Origin: Fodinicurvata sp. EGI_FJ10296
GTDB lineage: Bacteria > Pseudomonadota > Alphaproteobacteria > DSM-16000 > Inquilinaceae
Direction of reading: 5' to 3'
Length of the DNA stretch: 64,000 bases
NCBI RefSeq assembly: GCF_040712075.1
Contig: NZ_JBFCVL010000011.1
Coordinates: 1 to 64,000, forward strand
Under the pieces are notes generated by a model. That model did no database searches and was not told the origin of the DNA. It worked only from the letters and a program-made list of their open reading frames with translations. Below are positions 58,309-59,632 of the stretch, in pieces. A program made the translations under genes and the position numbers. Positions within the stretch are counted from its first letter, which is position 1. Each line of letters starts with the position of its first letter.

Positions 58309-59313
58309 ATGCCGCCCCCCACTACTCCTCATGATGACCTTTTCAAGGCGCTGCTCGACGACCCGCGCCGTGCGGCAGCGGTTCTGAACGACTATCTCCC
58401 GCCGGAGATCGCACCGATGCTGGGGCATGCGCTGCCGGAGCCGATCGACGGCAGCTTCATCGACGAGGACCTCGCCAACAGCCAGAGCGACCGGCTGTTC
58501 CGGGTGCAGACCCGCGACGGGCGATCGGCCTTCGTCTATGCCCTGCTGGAGCACAAGAGTTCGGTCGACCCGGCGACGCCGATCCAGCTGGGCACCTATC
58601 TGCTGCGCATCTGGCGCCGGCATGGCGATGCTCCGGACGGGAATTTCCGCCGGCTGCCGCCGATCATCCCGATCGTGTTCTACCATGGCCGCCAGCCGTG
58701 GAGCGTCCCGACCGCGATCATCGATTGCATCGATGCCGACGCGCCGCTCAAGGAGCAGCTCCGCGACCTCCGCTACACCGTCCATCACCTGAACGAACGT
58801 CCCGACAACGCCCTGTCCAACCATCGCGACGTCGCCGCGGTGTTCCTGGCGCTCAAGCATCTGCGCGAGGAACCGGCGGCGTTCGACACCCTGGTGCGGA
58901 TCCTTGAGCTGCCGGCAGCCGACACGCAATTGCTGAAACAGCTGATCCAATATATCCTGACGACCCAGCCTTCCATCGACCGCGATGGCTGGCAACAGCT
59001 GATATCCGCAGCCCGACCGCAGGAGGAGGACACCGTCATGTCGATCGCGATCCGTCAATGGCAGGAAGAAGGCCGCCTGCAGGGGCTGGTACAGGGGAAG
59101 GCCGAGGGAAAAGCCGAAGGAATAACAGAGGGAATGGCCAAAGGAATGGCCGATAGCCTTATCCAGATCCTTGAAACCCGCTTCCACGAACTCGACGAGG
59201 ATGTCAAGAGCCGGATCCGGAACCAATCAGCCGACGCCCTCAGCATGGCGACCAAACGTGCACTCGTCGCACCGACGTTTGAGCAGGCGCTCGACGGATT
59301 GACGCACCATTAG
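58309..59313 (+). CDS. Rpn-family PD-(D/E)XK nuclease
   Basis: This 334-residue protein belongs to the Rpn (recombination-promoting nuclease/putative transposase) family. Residues ~5-200 form the nuclease domain: PHDDLFKALLDDPRRAAAVL, the catalytic run SDRLFRVQTRDGRSAFVYAL and then LLEHKSSVDP (the E-x-K pair). The C-terminal ~90 residues are a helical tail with GKAEG repeats. The start ATG 58309 has only a weak site, whereas an internal ATG (59038) has an excellent one. In E. coli, RpnA-type genes make a toxic antiphage nuclease and a short C-terminal antitoxin from the same gene; the sequence here matches that design. Confidence 0.9.
   Translation: MPPPTTPHDDLFKALLDDPRRAAAVLNDYLPPEIAPMLGHALPEPIDGSFIDEDLANSQSDRLFRVQTRDGRSAFVYALLEHKSSVDPATPIQLGTYLLRIWRRHGDAPDGNFRRLPPIIPIVFYHGRQPWSVPTAIIDCIDADAPLKEQLRDLRYTVHHLNERPDNALSNHRDVAAVFLALKHLREEPAAFDTLVRILELPAADTQLLKQLIQYILTTQPSIDRDGWQQLISAARPQEEDTVMSIAIRQWQEEGRLQGLVQGKAEGKAEGITEGMAKGMADSLIQILETRFHELDEDVKSRIRNQSADALSMATKRALVAPTFEQALDGLTHH
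59038..59313 (+). CDS. Putative intragenic Rpn C-terminal protein (RpnS-like)
   Basis: This frame starts at an internal Met (residue 244 of the Rpn gene) preceded at 7 bases by AGGAGGAGGA (59021-59030), far stronger than the site of the full-length start. It would yield 91 residues starting MSIAIRQWQEEGRLQG with GKAEG-type repeats. The same start and sequence occur as a separate small gene at 59393. In known Rpn systems the C-terminal short protein binds and inhibits the full nuclease. Independent translation here is inferred. Confidence 0.65.
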   Translation: MSIAIRQWQEEGRLQGLVQGKAEGKAEGITEGMAKGMADSLIQILETRFHELDEDVKSRIRNQSADALSMATKRALVAPTFEQALDGLTHH

Positions 59314-59392
59314 CGACAGGGATCTGCCGGGGAGAGATCCTTGTCAGGTCACTTTGGCACCCCGCCCCGCCACACACGAAGAGAATATCTTC

Positions 59393-59632
59393 ATGTCGAT
59401 CGCGATCCGTCAATGGCAGGAAGAAGGCCGCCTGCAGGGGCTGGTGCAGGGAAAGGCCGAAGGAATGGCCGAAAGCCTCATCCGGGTCCTCGAAGCCCGC
59501 TTTCACCCGCTCGATCAGAGTGTGAAAAACCGGATCAGAATGCAGTCTGTCGAGGCGCTTGAAACAGCGACCGGGCGGGCGCTGGCCGCACCGACACTTG
59601 ATCACGTGCTAGACGGATTCTCGCAGCATTAG
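59393..59632 (+). CDS. Free-standing duplicate of Rpn C-terminal domain
   Basis: This 79-residue protein begins exactly like the internal Rpn start. The first ~50 bases of both copies are identical, then they diverge. The duplicate has one GKAEG unit where the full gene has an expanded run, 12 residues shorter overall, and both end in (D/L)DG(L/F)(T/S)(H/Q)H-like tails. The nuclease domain is absent. It fits a stand-alone antitoxin-like gene made by tandem duplication, or a remnant of a second rpn gene. A weak AAGAGA lies upstream. Confidence 0.65.
   Translation: MSIAIRQWQEEGRLQGLVQGKAEGMAESLIRVLEARFHPLDQSVKNRIRMQSVEALETATGRALAAPTLDHVLDGFSQH

Follow-up and report, generated by a model that had tools for sequence, protein, structure and literature searches.

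The window analyzed here, a stretch of 64,000 nucleotides from Fodinicurvata sp. EGI_FJ10296, contains a full-length rpn gene that is followed by a separate gene for its C-terminal tail alone. The reading that we lean toward is that the full-length gene encodes a toxin-antitoxin nuclease (RpnL/RpnS), while the free RpnS paralogue downstream is a mismatched orphan antitoxin and a spare tail, with a shared seam that would permit switching. The anatomy of the locus (Table 1), the identity of the seam, and the mismatch in repeat number were directly observed, as were fused and unfused equivalents of this arrangement among E. coli rpnE strains.

Table 1. Features of the rpn locus (positions within the window).
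Feature	Position	Strand	Basis
rpnL, full-length Rpn (PD-(D/E)XK nuclease)	58309..59313	+	PF04754, RpnE alignment
Internal ribosome site AGGAGGAGGA of rpnS	59021..59030	+	Sequence; pairing -12.1 kcal/mol
Intragenic rpnS, 91 aa, predicted antitoxin	59038..59313	+	Internal start; rule of Rpn family
53-nt seam, copy 1	59038..59090	+	Identical to 59393-59445
53-nt seam, copy 2	59393..59445	+	Identical to 59038-59090
11-bp hairpin between rpn and free copy, no T-run	59315..59345	+	Fold z -1.28
Decayed upstream homology, ribosome site lost	59345..59392	+	Six-frame match, alignment, pairing
Free rpnS paralogue, 79 aa, DUF4351-like	59393..59632	+	PF14261, tail profile, AlphaFold helices

A full-length rpn gene with a strong internal start

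The rpnL frame is intact, starts with ATG, and encodes 334 amino acids. Its product matches the Pfam family PF04754 (E=1.9e-47, 161.9 bits as compared to a cut-off of 21) and, judging by the Rpn family, would be an anti-phage DNA nuclease. A transposase, as the old Pfam name suggests, was ruled out on the evidence of Zhong et al. (2023, PMC10327210). The catalytic residues D11, D63, E82, and Q84 were defined in RpnA (Kingston et al. 2017, PMC5350276); with this numbering moved onto E. coli RpnE, the sequence that we aligned to the rpnL product, they correspond to D9, D61, E81, and K83. The lysine at the place of Gln84 calls for caution, because the RpnA-Q84K variant is inactive (Kingston et al. 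2017, PMC5350276), and it may alter the activity in some backgrounds.

The main start of rpnL lacks a ribosome site, with a pairing to the anti-Shine-Dalgarno (anti-SD) sequence of -2.8 kcal/mol. In contrast, the internal ATG, which corresponds to Met244 of the same frame, pairs at -12.1 kcal/mol, a value matched by 0.1% of the 1021 ATGs of the window. The ribosome site itself encodes the conserved Q-E-E-D directly before Met244. We then surveyed 130 rpn genes from many genomes, counting an SD with five or more matching bases as strong. Such a site was present at the tail start of 101 of the 130 genes, compared to 13 at the main start and 7 in a control block within the nuclease domain. Thus, weak initiation of the full-length form together with strong initiation of the short form is a rule among rpn genes rather than a peculiarity of the window.

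In E. coli, RpnS is translated within rpn and binds and blocks RpnL. The four-residue repeats of its first helix tune the choice of partner, and RpnCS with one added repeat fails to block RpnC (Zhong et al. 2023, PMC10327210). The intragenic rpnS of the window has a Met-to-RF register of 49 residues.

A separate gene for the tail with fewer repeats

The downstream ORF has its own reading frame, which encodes the C-terminal Rpn domain but no nuclease domain. From its ATG onward, the first 53 bases equal those of the internal tail and the first 24 residues are identical; if the 51 differences were scattered randomly among the 240 aligned bases, 53 leading bases free of differences would occur with a P of about 5e-7. 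The identity of the two tails climbs sharply right at the ATG of the free copy. According to the repeat finder, a stretch of 99 nt is 89% identical and the final 185 nt are 73% identical; the free tail has three tetrads (12 amino acids) fewer. Its register of 37 residues, as compared to 49 in the neighboring toxin, means that the repeat numbers are unequal. The initial annotation had described a weak Rpn start, an excellent internal site before Met244, and a separate, diverged downstream gene with the same ~50 initial bases and fewer repeats, and our measurements agree with it on each of these points. It had also compared the gene to E. coli toxins with an intragenic antitoxin and noted the additional free short form; this layout is indeed that of E. 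coli rpnE/ypaA, and intragenic RpnS combined with free downstream copies is already known from rpnE/ypaA and rpnC (Zhong et al. 2023, PMC10327210).

Compared to PF14261 (DUF4351), the free tail scored 21.1 bits (E=3e-4), with a cut-off of 25. Its AlphaFold model (pLDDT 77) has a long helix that spans residues 4-37, together with two or three short ones. Such an arrangement may correspond to that published for RpnAS (PDB entry 7TH0), a three-helix bundle with a long first helix. Fold searches gave no meaningful match; 7TH0 was missing as well, an absence that does not count as evidence. A search of PDB sequences using the tail profile returned nothing relevant.

Upstream of its start, the free copy continues to match the internal tail region for about 14 codons (APRPATHEENIF versus AARPQEEDTV; six-frame match from 59348). 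Within this stretch, AGGAGGAGGA is changed to CGAAGAGAAT, and the pairing of -2.9 kcal/mol is that of an average ATG. This loss of the strong ribosome site is a detail that was absent from the initial annotation. A promoter and terminator scan detected none on the + strand. The fold of the hairpin between the two genes was not significant, and the hairpin was not scored as a terminator; it may represent either a remnant or the end of a transcript.

We propose that the free RpnS paralogue would have arisen by partial tandem duplication of the rpn tail. As to origin and not function, a second full-length rpn in tandem might also have lost its nuclease part by deletion and left the free copy as its 3' remainder, which we consider rather unlikely. 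Such a remainder would be in line with the homology that precedes the tail start and with the tandem full-length rpn genes found in a genome of the same family (L024). However, one-step duplication of the tail with its upstream site, of the kind seen in E. coli, where the unit starts at the SD, explains the same facts, and no trace of a nuclease domain was found in the 79 nt that separate rpn from the free copy.

Rpn paralogues of the genome and the identity of the tail start

The genome carries six rpn genes and only one free tail. The rpn gene on contig 4 (C4) is 94% identical to that of the window. The two differ at 4 of 300 bases at 58549-58848 and at 1 of 180 at 58909-59088, and the divergence leaps to 28 of 201 bases in the tail. 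The three-way site patterns of the window, C4, and free tails were clustered (P=5e-5). Moreover, the comparison of the free copy with C4 gave a dS of 0 over the first 24 codons and of 0.77 over the rest. The closest other paralogue (C6a; L003; contig 6, 230581-231533; 70% identity) has silent differences within the same start stretch. Because of these, the identity of the start is not accounted for by constraint at the RNA level; the substitution patterns point instead to recent exchange across it.

The Met-to-RF registers in this genome are all different, being 49 in the window gene, 41 in C4, 50, 42, and 45 in the others, and 37 in the free tail. C6a is the only Rpn of the genome with the repeat register of the free tail. 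In the C6a tail itself, the frame shifts about 13 codons past the internal Met (110 nt versus 111 expected), which may be either a true change or an assembly error.

Two further rpn genes, on contigs 6 and 2 (L004 and L005), form a near-identical pair that is mainly two tail repeats apart; their registers of 50 and 42 resemble those of the window/C4 pair. Elsewhere in the same family, genome G001 has 25 rpn matches (L012-L033), which include the tandem full-length genes mentioned above and, at the end of a contig, a frame for the tail alone (L023). None of the 15 other genomes of the family had rpn matches.

Signs of maintenance and of decay in the free copy

The reading frame of the free copy is open. 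Scored with a profile built from 82 other Rpn tails, its distal domain reached 43.0 bits, compared to 32.6 for the window tail and 26.3 for the C4 tail, and 0 of 1500 neutral mutants of the window and C4 tails attained the score of the free tail. The branch leading to the free copy carries 12 silent versus 20 replacement changes, which is not clearly non-neutral (P 0.06-0.13); part of this branch was possibly spent in a full-length gene, so the constraint is not assignable to the free gene alone.

The main rival to an orphan antitoxin and spare tail is that the free copy is an untranslated relic of a tandem tail duplication, the identical start being the last patch of gene conversion. We regard this as possible rather than probable. 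It would account for the fall of the ribosome site from -12.1 to -2.9 kcal/mol, the decayed upstream homology, the lack of significance of the silent-change excess, and the presence of a single copy in the genome. A relic is harder to reconcile with the open frame, with a distal domain that is nearer to the family profile than the tail of its neighbor and was not equaled by any neutral mutant, and with an identity that jumps exactly at the ATG. Furthermore, the SD test is weak here: in a calibration on window genes, predicted starts and control blocks scored alike. Thus, the lost SD is not decisive, and the weak ribosome site does not prove that translation is absent. As the window copy is an exception among free tails in this respect, its lost SD nevertheless weighs against strong translation. 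Decay, already considered in the initial annotation, is visible in the ribosome site, but not in the frame or in the family-like sequence of the domain, and the silent-change excess on its branch does not reach significance.

Free tails at other rpn loci differ from their neighbors

We surveyed 125 distinct rpn genes, for each of which 500 nt or more of sequence were available downstream. A downstream tail match was present at 6 of the 125 loci, and at one of these (L089), it sits in another, longer ORF. Free downstream tails were found at five loci, namely the window, E. coli, L133, L134, and L117, with L133 and L134 representing one homologous locus in two genomes. A separate search identified an additional free tail in Bryobacterales (L010), where a stop interrupts the rpn frame just ahead of the tail. 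The initial annotation had suggested looking in related genomes for rpn genes followed by a small rpn-tail gene, and these loci have such a layout. A scan of genome contigs for close relatives returned three remote loci only.

All free tails examined differ from the neighboring tail in repeat number or length. Relative to the neighbor, the free tail has three repeats fewer in the window, one more in E. coli K-12, one fewer in L133/L134, and two fewer in L010, while that of L117 is shorter and has diverged too far for a repeat count. The L133/L134 and L117 loci (proteobacterial) and L010 thus resemble the window in having a downstream free tail of another repeat number or length with an internal-type start. 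In contrast to the window copy, their free copies retain a strong SD (-8.9 to -12.6 kcal/mol), as does that of E. coli, and their mismatch is smaller, at one repeat in L133/L134 and two in L010.

According to the initial annotation, the free copy might give extra immunity or respond to another Rpn. An additional antitoxin directed against the neighboring RpnL, raising the antitoxin dose, would be compatible with the position directly downstream in the same orientation, with the 24 identical residues, and with the production of RpnES (YpaA) in E. coli. However, three repeats are missing and the distal part is clearly diverged (73% nucleotide identity), whereas a single repeat suffices to break the RpnC pairing; the mismatch recurs in every free/intragenic pair examined, and the ribosome site is weak. 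Because of the three-repeat mismatch, we rank this explanation as the least likely and consider it quite improbable. Of the two suggestions, a free copy that answers another Rpn allele is the more likely.

A role in phage counter-defense was rejected, as viral contigs and phage records contained no relative of the free tail. Rpn genes were frequent on plasmids, yet below 60% identity.

Fused and unfused tails in E. coli rpnE strains

In E. coli, free rpnS genes lie downstream of rpnE (ypaA) and, in some strains, of rpnC, where the second rpnS arose independently. The RpnES (YpaA) protein is made, and free rpnS genes can be lost through deletion or fusion (Zhong et al. 2023, PMC10327210). By its published description, the rpnC-rpnCS arrangement resembles the window in having a second rpnS downstream. 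At rpnE-ypaA, as in the window, an Rpn gene with an intragenic RpnS is followed by a separate free RpnS with unequal repeats; in K-12, the first 19 residues are identical, the free copy is one repeat longer, and the ends have diverged. The two loci differ in that ypaA keeps a strong SD (AAAAGGAGAG) directly at the rpnE stop, whereas in the window, a 79-nt gap intervenes, the SD is lost, and the mismatch is three repeats instead of one. RefSeq labels most of the E. coli free copies (rpnE loci L050-L062 and L153-L163) as pseudogenes "missing N-terminus." K-12 ypaA is also a RefSeq pseudogene, although its protein is made (Zhong et al. 2023, PMC10327210), and the annotation thereby hides this class of genes.

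We compared 24 E. coli rpnE loci. Two recognizable tails were present in 15 of them, with the intragenic end always reading ...FEREIVLA.TQLTDADIPN.. and the free end ...DRD.VLAATQLSEADLAANNH. These 15 strains showed eight distinct repeat combinations, none of them matched. By chance, 0.5 of the 8 would be expected to match, and the absence is consistent with avoidance, without being proof of it, and also with chance. In all single-tail strains (7/7), the RpnE nuclease domain is joined to an end of the free type; in L054 and L158, the free copy is present and the rpnE tail is without the motif. In the shared start (the SD and 57 nt), 2-6 of 71 positions differ, compared to 14-18 of 90 in the ends. 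These sequences indicate that an event spanning this start, which could be either a deletion or a duplication, links the one-tail and two-tail states. What is a free tail type in one E. coli strain is the own tail type of the toxin in another. Because strains without the free gene carry its end fused, the identical start probably acts as an in-frame seam for tail swaps; the fused single-tail state comes from E. coli rpnE strains only, and the window locus is known from one strain.

Discussion

By analogy to the family, RpnL of the window would cut DNA, and RpnS, translated inside the gene, would bind and block it. The free tail, three repeats shorter, would not hold the neighboring RpnL. It should fail to neutralize its neighbor because the repeat number differs and one repeat governs specificity, a rule that derives from one E. 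coli protein, RpnC; in the window, repeat number would set the pairing as it does in the family. The free tail would instead fit an Rpn allele with another repeat number and thus serve as an orphan antitoxin. Both tails begin with the same in-frame sequence, which would be a recombination seam, and one deletion or exchange across it would give the nuclease the free tail, so that the specificities of toxin and antitoxin would switch together. We infer for Fodinicurvata sp. EGI_FJ10296 that the free tail is expressed, that it does not bind its neighbor, and that such switching occurs.

Orphan (solitary) antitoxins of type II toxin-antitoxin systems are antitoxin-like genes without a cognate toxin that possibly act on a related toxin. 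The free tail is similar to them in being an antitoxin-like gene that would lack a cognate toxin. Unlike in these systems, the Rpn antitoxin is the C-terminal domain of the toxin itself, and a tail swap alters both partners together.

As a tentative extension, free rpnS genes may represent standing tail cassettes: recombination at the seam would swap the tail of the nuclease, and in the meantime, the free copy would guard against the other allele when it is brought in by gene transfer.

The purpose of free rpnS genes and the way in which repeat numbers change were left open by Zhong et al. (2023, PMC10327210). New here are the generality of strong internal and weak external starts, the rarity and constant mismatch of free tails, the fused free-type ends and tail-swap seam in E. 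coli, and the lost SD of the window free copy. The window provides an example beyond E. coli. Its genome has several rpn paralogues, and no two of their intact tails share a repeat number. The mismatch of free tails, taken together with the fused single-tail E. coli alleles, amounts to a testable switch, and we propose that mismatch and tail swap are the part of the finding worth testing. As the antitoxin is the own tail of the toxin, a tail swap would renew a matched pair in one go.
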